From: a virus
Reading direction: 5' to 3' (one strand)
Virus record (IMG/VR): IMGVR_UViG_3300035660_000081
Coordinates: 1-23,903 of that record
Length of the DNA stretch: 23,903 bases
The position numbers were made by a program, and so were the translations under genes. Below are positions 1,822-23,603 of this stretch, piece by piece (position 1 is the first letter of the stretch; every line of letters begins with the position of its first letter). Below the pieces are notes generated by a model. It saw only the letters and a list, made by a program, of their open reading frames with translations, ran no database searches and was not told the origin of the DNA.

Positions 1822-2088
1822 GTGGTACGATTAAATATTGGAATACATACCTTTCTAAGTCAAGACGCTCTAGATGCTGTATTAAAGAGTATGCTATTGA
1901 AGCAATATGACTTTAGTGCTGAGGCTAGAGAGGAACACGACAAAGATGTAATATTCAGGGATGGAGTAAAGATTAAATCTACTGAAGAAGAAAGAGCTAG
2001 TTATTGGAGCAGTATAATACAGACACCTAGAAAGAAACTTAGACCTATTAGTGAAGGTGAAGAGGTAGCTAATATATGGATAAAGTAA
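1822..2088 (+). CDS. Hypothetical protein (88 aa), GTG start
   Basis: The GTG start is chosen because AGGTGA lies a few bases upstream (about 1812-1817), a good archaeal ribosome binding site. The product is 88 aa, mixed charged and helical, with the middle rich in Glu/Arg. Its last 13 bases overlap the start of the methyltransferase, suggesting translational coupling. Family not recognised. Confidence 0.6.
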   Translation: MVRLNIGIHTFLSQDALDAVLKSMLLKQYDFSAEAREEHDKDVIFRDGVKIKSTEEERASYWSSIIQTPRKKLRPISEGEEVANIWIK

Positions 2089-2837
2089 ATACAACAGAGT
2101 TAGGGTATAAGATAGAACATCTAGGTTGGGCTAGAAACCAGATTCATAGGGATTATATAGCTCACTGTCTAAGATGGCAATATGTACTAAGACATGTAAA
2201 GAGAGGAATGAATATTATAGATATAGGCTGTGGCTCTTTTCCTTTACTTAAGGCTCTATATTCTAATAAGCTTAAACCTAACCTTTATGTAGGTATAGAT
2301 ATTAGGAAAGCTGAAATAGAAAAGCTAATGCAATTTAAAACTAACTTTACTGTAATAGGTTGCCAGATTGATATAAGAGTTAATCCTTTACCTAGTATTA
2401 GAAATATAACCTTTAGTACCGATAGAACTGATGGATGGAATAACTATGATATAGCAGTATGCTTAGAGGTAGTAGAACATTTTGAGGCTGAATATATTAC
2501 TCATGTACTAAACCAGATTAGAAGAGTTCTTAAGCCTAATGGTTTATTATTTTTATCTACTCCTAACTATGATGCTAAGGTAGGAATGGCTAAAGCTCAT
2601 ATACATGAGTACACTGATGAAGAGTTAAAGAGTTATCTTAGGCAATTCTTTACTATAGAAAAGGCTATAGGTATATTTGCTAGCCAGAAGGATATAGAGC
2701 TAGTGCTTACTAGGGCTGAGAAGGAAGTTTATGACGAATTAAAGCCATGGTTCAGTCCGGACATACTGTCTACTATCTTTAGTTCTACTCATCCATATCA
2801 GAGTAGGAATATATTATGGGTTTGTAGGAAGGATTAA
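2076..2837 (+). CDS. Class I SAM-dependent methyltransferase
   Basis: Rossmann-fold methyltransferase of the UbiE/Methyltransf_11 type. Motif I is IIDIGCGSFPLL (about residues 47-58). Motif II is VGIDIRKAE, with the acidic residue expected to bind the SAM ribose. Motif IV-like CLEVVEHFE is followed by the usual RRVLKPNGLLFLSTPN strand-turn and the HEYTDEELKSYL helix typical of this group. At 253 aa it is full length. The substrate cannot be read from the sequence; in viruses such enzymes act on small molecules, sugars, proteins or nucleic acid. It sits just upstream of the nucleotide-metabolism cluster, but its link to that pathway is only positional. Confidence 0.88.
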   Translation: MDKVNTTELGYKIEHLGWARNQIHRDYIAHCLRWQYVLRHVKRGMNIIDIGCGSFPLLKALYSNKLKPNLYVGIDIRKAEIEKLMQFKTNFTVIGCQIDIRVNPLPSIRNITFSTDRTDGWNNYDIAVCLEVVEHFEAEYITHVLNQIRRVLKPNGLLFLSTPNYDAKVGMAKAHIHEYTDEELKSYLRQFFTIEKAIGIFASQKDIELVLTRAEKEVYDELKPWFSPDILSTIFSSTHPYQSRNILWVCRKD

Positions 2838-2939: not shown

Positions 2940-3101
2940 ACGACTAGCTTAAGATGTCCAAAATGTGCTAGAGAAGGAAAGAAAGGGAGACTAAGAATAG
3001 AGAAAATAAACAAGTTTGATAAGCCGGTTGTTCCAACATATAAATGTAAAAAGTGTAGTAGAAGATATTTTAAGGTGAATAGGCAGTGGAGAAGTTTCTA
3101 A
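2940..3101 (+). CDS. Zn-ribbon coding stretch without a canonical start codon
   Basis: The frame directly after TAA 2937-2939 encodes T-T-S-L-R-CPKC, then a basic linker, then CKKC and RRYFKVNRQW, ending at a TAA that overlaps the glycosylase start by 16 bp. Two CxxC knuckles about 30 residues apart make a convincing Zn ribbon. There is no in-frame ATG, GTG or TTG before the first cysteine. The first codon after the stop is ACG, six bases after GGG of GGTAGGGAT; almost the same GTAGGGATAT precedes the TTG start of the C5-methyltransferase homologue near 7770. Options are ACG initiation, readthrough of the TAA from the 33-aa gene, a sequencing error, or a decayed gene. Confidence 0.45.
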   Translation, partial: TTSLRCPKCAREGKKGRLRIEKINKFDKPVVPTYKCKKCSRRYFKVNRQWRSF

Positions 3102-3673
3102 GTAAAGATCAAGCTTTCTATAAGCTAGTAGAGGAAGTAAGTAAGTGCAAAGCTTGTAAACTTTGTGGTCTATGTCAACATAGGTGTCCGGGGCTAGGAA
3201 ACTTGAATGCTAAAGTAATGTTTATAGGAGAAGCGCCCGGTAGAGTAGATAACCCAGAGCTTAGAAGTTTACCCTTTGTTGGTAATAAGTCTAGTGATCT
3301 ACTCTTAGAATGTATATACTCTAATTGGGAGTATGGATATGATGATGTTTATATTACTAATGTAGTTAAGTGTAACCCACCCATGAATAGGAAACCAGAA
3401 GATGAAGAGATATATGCTTGTACTAAGTTTCTTAAGGAAGAGATTAAGCTAGTGGACCCGAAGATAATAGTATGTCTAGGAAGGACAGCAGCCAATTGGT
3501 TTGGTATAAGAGAAGGTTTAAATAGCTGTTTAGATAAAGAGTATAAGTGGGAAGGGCGCTTGGTTAAGGTCTTGTACCACCCAGCATACGTTCTACGTTT
3601 TGGGAATCAAGCAGCCCTTCAATATTTAGCTTTATTTAAACTAATGAAAAAGAGGATTAATAAAATATGTTAG
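3086..3673 (+). CDS. Family 4 uracil-DNA glycosylase (Fe-S)
   Basis: Removes uracil from DNA to start base-excision repair. The GTG start is followed by CxxC (C21, C24), motif 1 GEAPG (48-52), PFVG (63-66), TNVVKCNPPMNRKP (91-104) with the third cluster cysteine C96, C112 as the fourth, and motif 2 HPAYVLR (165-171). The cysteine spacing is that of family 4 enzymes, which carry a 4Fe-4S cluster and are typical of archaea and thermophiles. The stretch after PFVG (GNKSSDLL) differs from the usual GxxGxLL. There are extra cysteines near the N-terminus (C27, C30, C34). It overlaps the kinase gene by 7 bp. A phage-encoded glycosylase fits control of uracil in a virus that also has a dUTPase-fold protein. 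Confidence 0.9.
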   Translation: MEKFLSKDQAFYKLVEEVSKCKACKLCGLCQHRCPGLGNLNAKVMFIGEAPGRVDNPELRSLPFVGNKSSDLLLECIYSNWEYGYDDVYITNVVKCNPPMNRKPEDEEIYACTKFLKEEIKLVDPKIIVCLGRTAANWFGIREGLNSCLDKEYKWEGRLVKVLYHPAYVLRFGNQAALQYLALFKLMKKRINKIC

Positions 3674-4233
3674 TTATAATTGAAGGTGTCGATGGGACAG
3701 GAAAAACGACATTAATAGAAGGGCTTAAGAGGTTCTTTTCTAGACCAATATACATAATAAACTATAGCTATCCTACCGGCTGGCATATGAATATAGAGGC
3801 TGGAATTGCTAGAGGGGAATACTTAGCTAGTATTAGGATATTCAAGGAGATACTATCTAAGCAGCCAGATGCAATAATAATATGTGATCGGTTCCACTTA
3901 GGAGAGTATGCTTACGGACCGGTTAAGAGGGGCTATCCAGAGTGGTTAGCAGAGAAGACCTTTGAAATAGAGGACGAGCTAATAAAAGAACTAGGTAAAG
4001 AGAATATCCGGTTAATAGTAATGGGTATGTCTAAACCAGAGATAGCTTTAGAGCGGTCTAATAGGAAGGGTGAGTATCTGAAGGAACTTGATGAGTATAA
4101 GATGGTTAACAATAGATATGGTACGGCCTGTGGTATAACTAAGTTACCTTACCTTGTAGTTCATGCTGATATATTTGGTAGGTATCAAGTCCTTGACCGT
4201 GTTATCAATTTTATAACTGAGGAATATACTTGA
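3667..4233 (+). CDS. Thymidylate-kinase-like deoxynucleoside monophosphate kinase
   Basis: P-loop kinase of the dTMP-kinase superfamily: Walker A EGVDGTGKTT at residues 6-15, the DR(F/Y)-type motif CDRFHLGEYAYG near the middle, and a C-terminal lid-like basic stretch (ERSNRKGEYLKELDEY). Family members transfer phosphate from ATP to a dNMP. At 188 aa it is slightly short for Tmk. It sits with only a 43-aa gene between it and the thymidylate-synthase homologue. Because that neighbour looks like a dCMP hydroxymethylase, the natural substrate may be hydroxymethyl-dCMP, as for T4 gene 1 kinase; this is inference from context. Confidence 0.82.
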   Translation: MLVIIEGVDGTGKTTLIEGLKRFFSRPIYIINYSYPTGWHMNIEAGIARGEYLASIRIFKEILSKQPDAIIICDRFHLGEYAYGPVKRGYPEWLAEKTFEIEDELIKELGKENIRLIVMGMSKPEIALERSNRKGEYLKELDEYKMVNNRYGTACGITKLPYLVVHADIFGRYQVLDRVINFITEEYT

Positions 4234-4364: not shown

Positions 4365-5366
4365 ATGGAGCAATTTAAAGGGAATAATATTCCGGGTCTA
4401 TATACCAGAATTTTAGAGAAAATATTGAATGATGGGAAAGAAGTGGGTCCAAGAGGATTAAAGACTAAAGAACTATCACCGGTATGCATAGAGGTTACTG
4501 ATCCTAGACGTAGACTATTTGGACACCCTTACCGTAAGGATGTTAGCATATTTACCTATATTGAAGGTCTGTGGATGCTGAAGGGTGAGGCTAGACCGGA
4601 TAGATTAGTTAGGTATGTACCGGCTATGGCTAACTTTACTAATGAAGCTACTAAGGGATTAGATGGGGCATATGGACCGGCTATAAACCTTACTAAGTAT
4701 GGCTATAAGATAAACCAGTGGGAGAATGCATATAATAGATTGACTATGGATCCAGATACTAGACAAGCTATAATAATGATTAACCAACCAACTATTCACC
4801 AATTACCGAGTAAGGACTACCCATGTACACTAAGCTTTCAGTTCTTACTTAGGAATAAACTATTAGATATGATAGTTACTATGAGAAGCCAAGATGCATG
4901 GTTAGGTCTAATCTATGATACCGGAGAGTTTCAATGGTTCCAAGAGATAATGGCCGGTTGGCTAGGTGTAGGGCTAGGAAGGTATATTCATATTGATGGT
5001 AGCTTACATCTCTATGAGAGGGACTGGGTTAAAGCTAGAGAGGTAGTAGATAATGATGCTAACTTTAGTGTTTATGACAAAGCTGCTGTACTAGATGCTA
5101 GGGTATCTAAGGACCAGTTTGATAGTACACTAGAAACTCTAGCTCTATGGGAAACTAGTTGCAGGGCTGGTAAGTTTGAGGCTGTAGTCTCTAGAAGACC
5201 TAGCGGGTTACTATGGAAAGATAATAAGTTCTATATGAACCTAGTAACTATGATAATGGCTTATAACTTTAGATTGGAAGGGTACAAACTAGAGGCTTAT
5301 GAGCTAGTACAATACAATAGGTCTGACTTAGGGATTATCTATGAACAGAGGTGGAGACCGCAATGA
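4365..5366 (+). CDS. Thymidylate-synthase homologue, probable dCMP hydroxymethylase
   Basis: The ThyA fold is clear: E67 in YIEGLWMLKG, GAYGP (101-105), DPDTRQ (129-134), catalytic cysteine C154 in DYPCTLSFQF, R174-S175 and D177, and the H215/Y217 pair in SLHLYERD. Aligned to E. coli ThyA from its C146, the spacing to R166, D169, N177, H207 and Y209 is kept without gaps. The position of Asn177, which selects uracil, is Asp185 here (GLIYDTGE). In T4 gene 42 the same Asn-to-Asp change marks a dCMP hydroxymethylase. The likely product is therefore 5-hydroxymethyl-dCMP from dCMP and methylene-tetrahydrofolate. At 333 aa it is longer than ThyA (about 264). dTMP synthesis remains the alternative, less likely because of D185. 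Confidence 0.85.
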   Translation: MEQFKGNNIPGLYTRILEKILNDGKEVGPRGLKTKELSPVCIEVTDPRRRLFGHPYRKDVSIFTYIEGLWMLKGEARPDRLVRYVPAMANFTNEATKGLDGAYGPAINLTKYGYKINQWENAYNRLTMDPDTRQAIIMINQPTIHQLPSKDYPCTLSFQFLLRNKLLDMIVTMRSQDAWLGLIYDTGEFQWFQEIMAGWLGVGLGRYIHIDGSLHLYERDWVKAREVVDNDANFSVYDKAAVLDARVSKDQFDSTLETLALWETSCRAGKFEAVVSRRPSGLLWKDNKFYMNLVTMIMAYNFRLEGYKLEAYELVQYNRSDLGIIYEQRWRPQ

Positions 5367-7769: not shown

Positions 7770-8753
7770 TTGAGAGCAGTTGTTTTTTATGCCACGTATG
7801 GTCATTGGTCTAAGAGTCTACTAAATGCTGGTATTCCTCTAAGGTCTCATTATCAACCGGATATTAGTATAGATCCAGAAAATAGAATGGAGCAAGATAA
7901 ACTTTCTAATATGATACTAACTATGAATTTTCCTAATATACCAATTCAAAAACCATTTAAGCCTATAGAGTTACATGATCCTATAGAACTTTTTGATAAT
8001 ATAAACCTTATGGTAGGTAGCCCACCATGCATAGGTTTTAGTCGCGTTAACCCTAACGCTAGGGAAGATCATCCGGCTAACAAGCATACTCTTAATTTTG
8101 CTAATTGGGTAGTGAAGGTAATACCTAAGTATTTCTTAATGGAGATGGTCCCGAATATACTAACAACCGGTAAATCTATTTGGGGAAAGTTCAGGGATAT
8201 AGTTAGACCGTATTACATTATTGATTATTGTATAATGGAAGCCTCTGAATATGGAGCGGCTCAAAAGAGAAAGAGGCTTTATGTATGGGGCAGAAGAAAA
8301 GATTTACCTAGAATAGAATCTCCATTATGTAGTTTACCTAAGAAGAAAGCTCTTACTATAGGAGAACTATTATTAGAAGGATTATCAGCTAAGTTTGATA
8401 TGTATATACCAGATGGTAAGCAGCTTATGAGTATGTATAAGAAAGATGGGACCGGTTTAAGCGCTGGACCATTTAGTTTACTTAGTACAGAAGAGAAGAG
8501 AAGAAAGAGAACCTTAAAGTTTTTTGGACAGATGTACACTATAGTAGGTACTTCAGTATGTAATTGTCTTCATCCTTCTGGTAGGCGTTTCTTATCTATA
8601 CCAGAAATAAAGTTGTTGATGGGCTTCCCGGTAGATTATAAGTTACCGGCTAAACTAAACGCTCAGCAAGCATGTAGGGTGATAGCCTCTGGTGTAGATG
8701 TTAGGTTTGCTAGTTATCTATTAGAACATATAAGGGATGTAATAGAAGAATGA
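7770..8753 (+). CDS. C5-cytosine DNA methyltransferase homologue
   Basis: Motif IV GSPPCIGFSR (catalytic C87), motif VI-like MEMVPN (E125, corresponding to ENV), motif VIII Q-K-R-K-R (165-169) and motif IX/X HPSGRRFLSIPEIKLLMGFP are present in order, so the catalytic centre looks intact. Motif I is degenerate: VVFYATYGHWSKSLLNAG instead of DLFAGxGG. The variable target-recognition region, between about residues 175 and 265, is short. TTG start with GTAGGG upstream. Family role: methylation of cytosine C5 in DNA for self-marking or restriction evasion. Its presence beside a dCMP-hydroxymethylase-like enzyme is odd, since hydroxymethylated C5 cannot be methylated. Confidence 0.8.
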   Translation: MRAVVFYATYGHWSKSLLNAGIPLRSHYQPDISIDPENRMEQDKLSNMILTMNFPNIPIQKPFKPIELHDPIELFDNINLMVGSPPCIGFSRVNPNAREDHPANKHTLNFANWVVKVIPKYFLMEMVPNILTTGKSIWGKFRDIVRPYYIIDYCIMEASEYGAAQKRKRLYVWGRRKDLPRIESPLCSLPKKKALTIGELLLEGLSAKFDMYIPDGKQLMSMYKKDGTGLSAGPFSLLSTEEKRRKRTLKFFGQMYTIVGTSVCNCLHPSGRRFLSIPEIKLLMGFPVDYKLPAKLNAQQACRVIASGVDVRFASYLLEHIRDVIEE

Positions 8754-20098: not shown

Positions 20099-20986
20099 AT
20101 GACAACCTCTATAGATGCTTGTAAAAAGAAACATCAAGAGATATTATGGCCTACCGTAAGGATCCGGGCAGAGAAAGCTTGGGGTTCTGGTACAGTTATC
20201 TATTCTGGTAAGATTGGGGCCGGGCAGTTTGTAACCTATGTAATAACATGCCATCATGTCATAGCTGATAATATTAAGATAGAAAAGAAATTTGATCATA
20301 GAGTTGGTTACGACATAAAGAGAGAAAATAGAGTGCCTGCAGAGGTAGAGTTTTTCTACTATGAAAACTTATCTAAGTGCGGTGGTATAGCTGGATCTTG
20401 TAAAGCTGATATAGTAGCATACGATGAAGACGGTGATATAGCCTTGCTAGAATTAAAGAGGACTGTTGAAGTAGATCCGGTAGCGACTTTATTCCCTCTT
20501 GATAAGGTAAAGGAGATTCATGTGTTTGATGATACGTGGGCTTGTGGTGCAGCTCTAGCACATGAACCAATAACCACTAAGGGAATAATAAACTTTATGA
20601 ATGAAATACTAGATAACGGTATAGAATACTGGATGTCTAGTGCTCAGATTATCTTTGGAAACTCTGGTGGATCTATATTCAGGTATAGCGAAGAGCGGGA
20701 CAAGTATGAGTTTCTAGGTATACCGGCTAGGATAAGTATTAGTATGAATGGCTTCAGTGCAGATCCAATAACGCACATGGGGTTCTTTGTACCTATCACT
20801 AGAATATATAAGTTTCTAGATGATAACTTCTATAGCTTTATACACAACAAGGAAGAAACATATGAGTCTTGTAAGGCTAAGAGGGAAAAGTACGTACTAG
20901 AGAATGAGAAACTATTATTGGCTAAGTTTGGCGGTGCCCCAGAAACAGAAGACCCTAAGAGACGCCCGCCTCAAATACATCCTTAA
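20099..20986 (+). CDS. Trypsin-like serine protease (candidate maturation protease)
   Basis: Catalytic triad of the chymotrypsin fold: H53 in VITCHHVIAD, D113 in DEDGDIALLEL, S189 in IFGNSGGS. GSGTVIYSG at 29-37 is the usual first strand. MGFFVPITRIYKFLD near the end resembles the closing strand and helix of HtrA-type domains. There is no signal peptide and no PDZ domain; the last 40 residues are charged and Pro-rich. It lies two genes before the capsid gene, the place where tailed viruses keep the prohead protease, so capsid or scaffold processing is likely, though usual prohead proteases belong to other folds. Confidence 0.8.
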   Translation: MTTSIDACKKKHQEILWPTVRIRAEKAWGSGTVIYSGKIGAGQFVTYVITCHHVIADNIKIEKKFDHRVGYDIKRENRVPAEVEFFYYENLSKCGGIAGSCKADIVAYDEDGDIALLELKRTVEVDPVATLFPLDKVKEIHVFDDTWACGAALAHEPITTKGIINFMNEILDNGIEYWMSSAQIIFGNSGGSIFRYSEERDKYEFLGIPARISISMNGFSADPITHMGFFVPITRIYKFLDDNFYSFIHNKEETYESCKAKREKYVLENEKLLLAKFGGAPETEDPKRRPPQIHP

Positions 20987-22560: not shown

Positions 22561-22932
22561 GTGGACAATAAACCTAACTTTCCCCTTCTTTCTTATAAAA
22601 ATATTTCTGGTAAGAGTATAGTAGAGATAGACGTAAGTTTATTAATACCCATAACATCTTTACATCTTACTGATAGTATTGCTTATCGTACTTCTAAACG
22701 GTTTATGGATCTTAAGACAGATATAGAAAAGAATGGTATTAGAGAACCAGTAATTGTTATGTATGAGTTTCTAGGTAAGATTAAAGGTAAATATACTGTC
22801 TTAGAGGGTATTCATAGATATACAATAGCCAAGTTGCTAGGATATAAGACTATGAAGTGTGTAGTCCAAGAAGGAGAATTAGATTGGAGAAGTGGCACTT
22901 TAATACCGCCTAAGAGGATAAGTAAACAATGA
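22561..22932 (+). CDS. ParB-like N-terminal domain protein (123 aa)
   Basis: ParB/Srx-type core: VEIDVSLLIPI (start strand), FMDLKTDIEKNGIREPVIV (helix and strand), then KYTVLEGIHRYTIAKLLGYKTMKCVV, with G-x-HR as the nucleotide/phosphate motif. Only this domain is present, with no helix-turn-helix, so it is not a complete partition ParB. Stand-alone copies in phages include CTP-binding regulators and nucleases. GTG start 14 bases after the capsid stop; ATGA overlap with the next gene. Confidence 0.7.
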   Translation: MDNKPNFPLLSYKNISGKSIVEIDVSLLIPITSLHLTDSIAYRTSKRFMDLKTDIEKNGIREPVIVMYEFLGKIKGKYTVLEGIHRYTIAKLLGYKTMKCVVQEGELDWRSGTLIPPKRISKQ

Positions 22933-23603
22933 TATATTATTTTAGTATAAGCAAACTTAGTCATTTTGAATTTTGTCCTAAGAGAAGTAAGCTTGAGCTT
23001 TTTAATCAAGTGGGGGAGATTAAGGGAAACTTAGGCGCTGTGGCTAGAGGTAATAGACTACATTATTTATATAGTTATCCGAATAAGGGATTTGATAGAA
23101 TCTTAGTTAGGCTTAAACTTAAGAATATGAGTAATGTAAGCAGAGGTAGAAGTGTATTCCAGAAGCAAGTAGACAATATTATAGTTATAGGAATGTATGA
23201 TGATCTTAGAGTAATAAGGGATATTGGAACAAATAAGAAGTATTCTATTATAATAGAGGTTAAGACCACATCTAAGAAGTATATGTGGAGTCGAGAGATT
23301 AAGGCAGCAGTGAAGCAGCTTCAATTGTATATGTGGTTGCTAAAAGAGAAACTAGAGGGTCTGGGCTTTCCTTTATGGGTAAGGTCATATGTAGAGATAT
23401 ACAGTCAAAAGACTGGTTATCTAATGAAGTCTATACCGGTAAAGTATGATGATGATATAGAAGACTGGATAAGGTATGTGGTAGAATGCTTTAAGGGATT
23501 AAAGAAAGTGTCTCCACCGTCTATAGGTGTGTGCAAGACTTGTCCAAAGAATGTTAAATTAGCTTGTTCATGGTATTCTTTAATGAGGAAGTCAAGTGCC
23601 TAA
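22929..23603 (+). CDS. Cas4-like PD-(D/E)XK Fe-S nuclease
   Basis: RecB/Cas4 motifs in order: S-x-S-K-L-S-H-F-x2-CP (C16), H45 in GNRLHYLYS, D91/D92 in IGMYDDLRV, E110 and K112 in IIEVKTTSKK, QLQLYMW (Q130 and Y134 of the Q-x3-Y motif), and C202, C205, C213 near the end. Four cysteines in the Cas4 arrangement imply a 4Fe-4S cluster. At 224 aa it is typical of Cas4. No cas1/cas2 is seen, so it is a solitary viral copy: either a recombination/replication exonuclease or an agent against host CRISPR adaptation. Confidence 0.82.
   Translation: MIYYFSISKLSHFEFCPKRSKLELFNQVGEIKGNLGAVARGNRLHYLYSYPNKGFDRILVRLKLKNMSNVSRGRSVFQKQVDNIIVIGMYDDLRVIRDIGTNKKYSIIIEVKTTSKKYMWSREIKAAVKQLQLYMWLLKEKLEGLGFPLWVRSYVEIYSQKTGYLMKSIPVKYDDDIEDWIRYVVECFKGLKKVSPPSIGVCKTCPKNVKLACSWYSLMRKSSA

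Follow-up and report, generated by a model that had tools for sequence, protein, structure and literature searches.

In the dCMP hydroxymethylase of bacteriophage T4 (gp42), the aspartate located three residues before the catalytic cysteine (D145) is required for hydroxymethylation and activates the water molecule that gives rise to the hydroxyl group, and a second aspartate, D179, selects dCMP as the substrate (PMC6400193). MilA prefers CMP, and the introduction of Ser and Arg at its positions Ala176 and Lys133 results in a preference for dCMP (PMC5175136). The MetaGPA study found that an aspartate at the position of T4 D179 marks the thymidylate synthase (TS) homologues of phage contigs with modified cytosine, and an engineered TS carrying the Asn-to-Asp replacement, as cited in the same paper, methylates dCMP (PMC8670742). 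Homologues from Mosigvirus have been named as 5-hydroxy-dCMP synthases (PMC13390438). As this aspartate is present in MilA, in the engineered dCMP-methylating TS and in relatives of the 5-hydroxy-dCMP synthases, it is insufficient on its own to identify a dCMP hydroxymethylase. Therefore, the residues that separate these activities from each other were tested in the present work.

The DNA of the cultured Stenotrophomonas phage AXL3 resists 35 of 37 restriction enzymes and is cut only by TasI and Tru1I, the sites of which consist of A and T. AXL3 has a separate ThyX for the synthesis of dTMP, and its gp28 was read by the authors as a normal thymidylate synthase (PMC7504290). The accessible literature on archaeal tailed viruses describes 7-deazaguanine bases and base methylation, and makes no mention of hydroxymethylated cytosine.

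Organization of the locus

The window, which is the whole stretch of 23,903 nucleotides analysed here, contains the following features:

2076 to 2837, plus strand: HEN1/UbiG-like class I SAM methyltransferase with the residues E131xxE134-H135 and H175; its proposed role is O-methylation of the hydroxymethyl group
3086 to 3673, plus strand: family-4 (archaeal-type) uracil-DNA glycosylase (UDG), a module member by profile matches and conserved gene order
3667 to 4233, plus strand: P-loop dTMP-kinase-like protein matching phrog_761 over its full length; proposed hm5dCMP kinase, the counterpart of T4 gp1
4365 to 5366, plus strand: putative dCMP hydroxymethylase of the TS superfamily, 333 amino acids from an ATG start, assigned from Pfam, PHROG and PDB matches and from its residues
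5626 to 6045, plus strand: dCTP-deaminase-fold (Dcd-like) protein lacking Glu138, Arg115 and Arg126 of Dcd
7770 to 8753, plus strand: C5-cytosine-methyltransferase homologue in which GSPPC is kept and SAM motif I is replaced

A gene-by-gene comparison of eight contigs finds the set of SAM methyltransferase, family-4 UDG, dTMP-kinase-like protein, hydroxymethylase and Dcd-like protein kept nearly throughout. The first 7 bp of the kinase-like gene are also the last 7 bp of the UDG gene. The kinase-like gene adjoins the hydroxymethylase gene in all relatives compared, and such neighbors are also found in MW202510, Sixama and DSL-LC01. Among the structural genes of a close relative, contig G005, there is a gene for a GT2-like glycosyltransferase (L031:12546-13088). 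Scanning the window for Rfam families and tRNAs gave no matches.

The Dcd-like protein was rejected as a dCTP deaminase because every member compared has Arg, Ile or Leu in place of the catalytic Glu138 of E. coli Dcd and because Arg115 and Arg126 are lost as well. By analogy with T4 gp56, it might be a dCTP pyrophosphatase or a dCTP binder that lowers the pool.

The C5-methyltransferase homologues retain an invariant motif IV Pro-Cys (GSPPC). The FxGxG SAM loop of motif I is gone, the sequence being Y-x-T-Y-G-H-W in most members, and the Pfam match of the window protein begins downstream of this motif; its motif X is ASGxDxR. The gene is present in seven of the eight contigs, directly beside the module in G006 and G012, and the only close relatives found are 7 IMG/VR loci, all of this virus group. 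The presence of such a protein would be odd if every cytosine were replaced.

Active-site residues of the predicted hydroxymethylase

The product of ORF 4365-5366 matches Pfam PF00303 (E 1.5e-17) and PHROG 5131 (phrog_5131, E 2.9e-50). It was aligned with E. coli ThyA, T4 gp42, SPO1 gp29, phage G gp319 and MilA. The catalytic cysteine is C154, and Asp185 occupies the position of ThyA Asn177, T4 Asp179 and MilA Asp186. The cysteine and the selector residue are 31 residues apart in the window protein, ThyA and T4 gp42, with no gap between them. C154, Asp185 and the gap-free alignment with ThyA and T4 gp42 had been reported in a preliminary description of the locus, and every number given there is correct. 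The TS core is present as E67, C154, R174, D177, H215 and Y217 (Glu58, Arg166, Asp169, His207 and Tyr209 in ThyA, besides the cysteine).

Several further residues bear on the activity. Asp151, at position -3 from the cysteine, coincides with T4 D145, and Thr155 follows the cysteine. A canonical ThyA was rejected, as it would be expected to have Asn177, Leu at -3 and His147 where the window protein has Asp185, Asp151 and Thr155. Ser175 and Arg133 correspond to S167 and R126 of ThyA. A MilA-type CMP enzyme, with Ala176 and Lys133 expected at these two positions, was likewise rejected; Ser175 and Arg133 predict that, unlike in MilA, the substrate is a deoxyribonucleotide (dCMP). Asp177 and Tyr217 are found as in folate enzymes. 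The preliminary description had predicted a dCMP hydroxymethylase from the Asn-to-Asp change. The prediction is supported, but that argument alone does not carry it: as judged from the alignment, the deciding residues beyond Asp185 are D151, S175, R133, D177 and Y217.

Gly101 is located at the position of T4 Ser94 (two residues before Tyr96), and the T4-type Ser/Thr signature is thus missing from the window protein. This serine does not have defining power for the wider class, because SPO1 gp29 has Ala and MAM1 has Gly there.

The signature D-x-x-C-T ... R-S ... D ... D ... H-x-Y is common to the window protein and its relatives, and thirteen close IMG/VR relatives have the same active-site residues. 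Asp185 is kept in nine aligned members, in further loci and in all 30 sequences of a broader alignment. The dN/dS ratio between close pairs of the gene is about 0.08, indicating purifying selection. Asp185 is thus due neither to chance nor to a sequencing error, and the gene is maintained. In 68 sequences residue 155 covaries with residue 185, Thr or Ser occurring with Asp, Asn with Asn, and His with Asn. The same two positions mark the modified-cytosine contigs in MetaGPA (PMC8670742). The residue pattern makes it very probable that the ORF encodes a folate-dependent dCMP hydroxymethylase.

A methyltransferase paired with Asp-type hydroxymethylases

The model of the protein encoded at 2076-2837 has a class I methyltransferase fold (pLDDT 88.9), and its profile matches include HEN1 (E 3.3e-9) and UbiG (E 7.3e-8). 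The metal-site pattern ExxEH ... H (E131xxE134-H135 and H175) is invariant in 38 methyltransferase sequences. The class I fold is common, and the model has more than 1,000 structural matches in the PDB; in the VIA-align comparison HEN1 (Z 17.7) is one of many class I methyltransferases with scores of 17-19 and is not favoured over them. N4-cytosine methylation by this protein was rejected, as the alignment contains no NPPY-type motif and the N6_N4_Mtase match is below the threshold.

A tblastn search with the methyltransferase found it in 5 of 50,697 phage records, which represent four phages, and in all four an Asp-type hydroxymethylase is encoded within about 3 kb. For scale, a relative of the window hydroxymethylase occurs in 818 of the same records (1.6%). 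An independent scan of IMG/VR with the methyltransferase alignment gave 281 relatives, and the neighborhoods of the best 80 loci were analysed. A TS homologue is situated no more than 8 kb from the methyltransferase in 67 of these 80 loci, and several of the loci without one are short fragments. The selector residue of the partner is Asp in each of the 66 readable cases and Asn in none. In all 65 measurable pairs the two genes are on the same strand, with a median gap of 1,350 nt. In the hydroxymethylase tree the partners lie on widely separated branches, some of them T4-gp42-like, and the link is therefore not a matter of simple co-inheritance. At two loci, L050 and L130, the methyltransferase has nearby a divergent hydroxymethylase of the Asp type in which the water-activating Asp is one residue further from the Cys (RDYVPC).

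The methyl group is transferred to a hydroxyl oxygen by both HEN1 and UbiG. Since the hydroxymethylase would create a hydroxyl group, O-methylation of hm5C is proposed to be the function of the methyltransferase. The linkage and the motif suggest this reaction as the step that follows hm5dC incorporation, a tentative assignment to which somewhat less than an even chance is given. O-methylated hm5C in phages was not found in a literature search. It is possible, and a little less probable than the tentative assignment, that the methyltransferase acts on RNA ends or on a metabolite, that its pairing with the hydroxymethylase is incidental and that hm5C, plain or glycosylated, is the final base. 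Class I methyltransferase folds are promiscuous, HEN1 itself is an RNA enzyme, and a GT2-like protein is encoded by the relative G005. An incidental link is, however, difficult to reconcile with partners that are invariably of the Asp type and on the same strand although they belong to distant branches, and glycosyltransferases of the T4, ATCCB and LuckyBarnes types are absent from the best 80 methyltransferase loci. As the methyltransferase is tied to Asp-type hydroxymethylases, the final base is probably capped rather than plain 5hmC.

Virus and host

Terminase, portal and capsid matches in the relatives identify the virus as a tailed one. Its host is very probably archaeal, judging from the gene content. 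The informational genes of the window are of archaeal type and comprise RadA (a model match of 164 bits, above that of RAD51), a Hef/XPF nuclease, Topo VI-A and the family-4 UDG, and the family-B polymerase (PolB) shares about 24% identity with its best matches, which come from tailed viruses of haloarchaea. A bacterial host would be consistent with the occurrence of most hydroxymethylase relatives in phages and with the failure of provirus searches of genome contigs, using the hydroxymethylase and the major capsid protein, to find any provirus; in view of the archaeal informational genes and of the best matches of PolB, it is improbable.

In one relative, G012, a gene for the anaerobic ribonucleotide reductase NrdD (L037:10078-11997) precedes the module by about 3 kb, which suggests an anaerobic host. 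The CpG observed/expected ratio is 0.45 in the window, 0.40 in G001 and 0.19 in G006, and at least 0.9 in G003 and G012; it may be related to the host or to the modification.

Some other proteins of the window are worth recording. The Topo VI A-like Toprim protein (3-1454) is 64-84% identical across relatives that are otherwise divergent, and no Topo VI subunit B was found among the window proteins searched. The product of 20099-20986, just upstream of the capsid gene, is 65-77% conserved, resembles a trypsin-type protease and has weak PADLOC matches to LmuA and RT-protease models. At 22561-23603, the gene for a ParB-like protein precedes that for a Cas4-like nuclease.

Fold, branch and other possible activities

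In a phmmer search of the PDB, the best match of the window hydroxymethylase is the CMP hydroxymethylase MilA (E 6.5e-35), followed at a distance by the best TS (4.5e-9) and the T4 enzyme (1.4e-5). The AlphaFold model (pLDDT 91.8) gives the same order in the VIA fold comparison for MilA (Z 36.7) and TS (about 22), with AfhB between them (24.3 and 23.6). In the tree, the window group is placed with phage G gp319 and the dUMP hydroxymethylases of SPO1 and EalM132 with moderate support (85-86), and T4 gp42 is located elsewhere. The preliminary description had called for a phylogeny with gp42-type enzymes; in this tree the window group is outside the gp42 branch. From its sequence, the predicted enzyme resembles gp42 in its action and does not belong to the gp42 subgroup.

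These comparisons also bear on other activities. A dCMP methylase similar to that of Xp12 would produce 5-methyl-dCMP, and 5mC would enter the DNA via the precursor pathway. The engineered Asn-to-Asp TS that methylates dCMP, as cited in PMC8670742, is a precedent, and the C5-methyltransferase homologue of the same genome suits a 5mC theme. This activity is nevertheless very unlikely: the residue at -3 is the Asp of hydroxymethylases and not the Leu of TS, the closest enzymes of known activity (MilA and SPO1 gp29) are hydroxymethylases, and no ThyA C-terminal tail is evident in the alignment. Still less probable is a flavin-dependent 5-hydroxy-dCMP synthase of the AfhB/Mosigvirus type, the product of which would be 5-hydroxycytosine that is glycosylated later. 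This family has the cytosine-selecting Asp as well, and the AfhB structures are second to MilA in fold, but MilA scores far above them. At -3 and at the positions of ThyA Asp169 and Tyr209, the window protein has Asp, Asp and Tyr, in contrast to Glu, Asn and Phe in the homologues from Mosigvirus and Kanagawavirus. An enzyme using O2 would also be ill-suited to the anaerobic host suggested by NrdD in G012. An ordinary thymidylate synthase or a dUMP hydroxymethylase supplying dTMP or hm5dU, as the family name, the dTMP-kinase-like neighbor and the closeness of SPO1-type enzymes in the tree might suggest, is the least probable, because every dU enzyme compared has Asn in place of the Asp (ThyA position 177) and His or Asn in place of the Thr that follows the Cys, and the two positions covary in all 68 sequences.

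Proposed pathway

Taking the ORF product to be a dCMP hydroxymethylase, it is possible to outline a pathway in which fold, family, residues, gene order and co-occurrence are read from the sequence and all subsequent chemistry is inferred. C154 would attack C6 of dCMP, and D185 would protonate N3 so that cytosine is chosen over uracil. A one-carbon unit would be taken from methylene-tetrahydrofolate or its archaeal equivalent, and a water molecule activated by D151 would complete 5-hydroxymethyl-dCMP. The dTMP-kinase-like neighbor may then make the hm5dC diphosphate while dCTP is kept low by the Dcd-like protein, and hm5dC would be built into the DNA by the family-B polymerase of the virus. Finally, the HEN1/UbiG-like methyltransferase might cap the hydroxymethyl group to give 5-methoxymethyl-cytosine, enabling the DNA to escape restriction.

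The pathway as a whole is considered likely, with the capping by the methyltransferase held more tentatively than the steps up to hm5dC incorporation. The preliminary description had concluded that an archaeal virus contains modified cytosine, with 5-hydroxymethyl-dC as the base. Modified cytosine in the virion DNA is indeed probable, but plain 5hmC is probably not the end product. A more speculative extension, regarded as possible though doubtful, is that the HEN1-like family (281 IMG/VR relatives) O-methylates hm5C and that the C5-methyltransferase homologue may add a further, SAM-independent step on hm5C in this virus group.

If the proposal is true, 5-methoxymethylcytosine would be a widespread and previously undescribed viral DNA base, extending here to archaeal viruses, and a dCMP hydroxymethylase in such a virus would bring DNA disguise of the T-even style to another domain of life. 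Archaeal hosts may use tetrahydromethanopterin instead of folate. As they may lack folate, the archaeal setting raises the question of the one-carbon carrier.

Comparison with known systems

MilA, from mildiomycin biosynthesis (PDB 5b6d, 5jnh and 5jp9), matches the window protein over nearly its full length (309 residues aligned, 28% identity) and shares with it the selector Asp (185/186), the Asp at -3 and the Thr after the Cys. It differs in the Ala176/Lys133 pair, and the window enzyme, unlike MilA, has a context of viral DNA metabolism. T4 gp42 is similar in the equivalents of D145 and D179, in the predicted reaction and in the kinase-type partner. The window enzyme, on the other hand, is on a different branch, has Gly for Ser94 and a long C-terminal extension, and is without the beta-glucosyltransferase neighbor. 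SPO1 gp29 and phage G gp319 form the nearest branch of the tree and have the Asp at -3. The cytosine-selecting Asp is also present in gp319, whereas in gp29 the two substrate-selecting residues are both Asn, in keeping with dUMP as its substrate.

The ExxEH and STPN regions of HEN1, a small-RNA 2'-O-methyltransferase, and of UbiG align with the viral methyltransferase family, which has invariant motifs of its own at the N-terminus (HRDY..H..R) and the C-terminus (P...RN..W). The hm5C carbamoyltransferase pairs of MetaGPA (PMC8670742) likewise combine an Asp-type TS homologue with a capping enzyme for the hydroxymethyl group. The group transferred there is carbamoyl, and methyltransferases are not named in the main text of that paper.

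A parallel in a cultured virus is AXL3, in which the methyltransferase (gp31) and the hydroxymethylase (gp28, with the Asp signature in the alignment) are encoded together with a dTMP kinase in the gp27-gp31 module. An NTP pyrophosphohydrolase and a dCMP deaminase are found where the window has the Dcd-like protein, UDG and the C5-methyltransferase homologue are not annotated in the gp27-gp31 region examined, the host is bacterial, and the methyltransferase is only 32% identical to that of the window. The restriction digest of AXL3 DNA is the outcome that cytosine replacement predicts, although guanine modification would also be compatible with it. As AXL3 combines the same pair of genes with unexplained restriction resistance, the new base modification can be tested cheaply in this phage. 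Compared with all these systems, the hydroxymethylase itself is of a known type in a new setting; what is new is its strict pairing with a HEN1-like methyltransferase in viral cytosine hypermodification.
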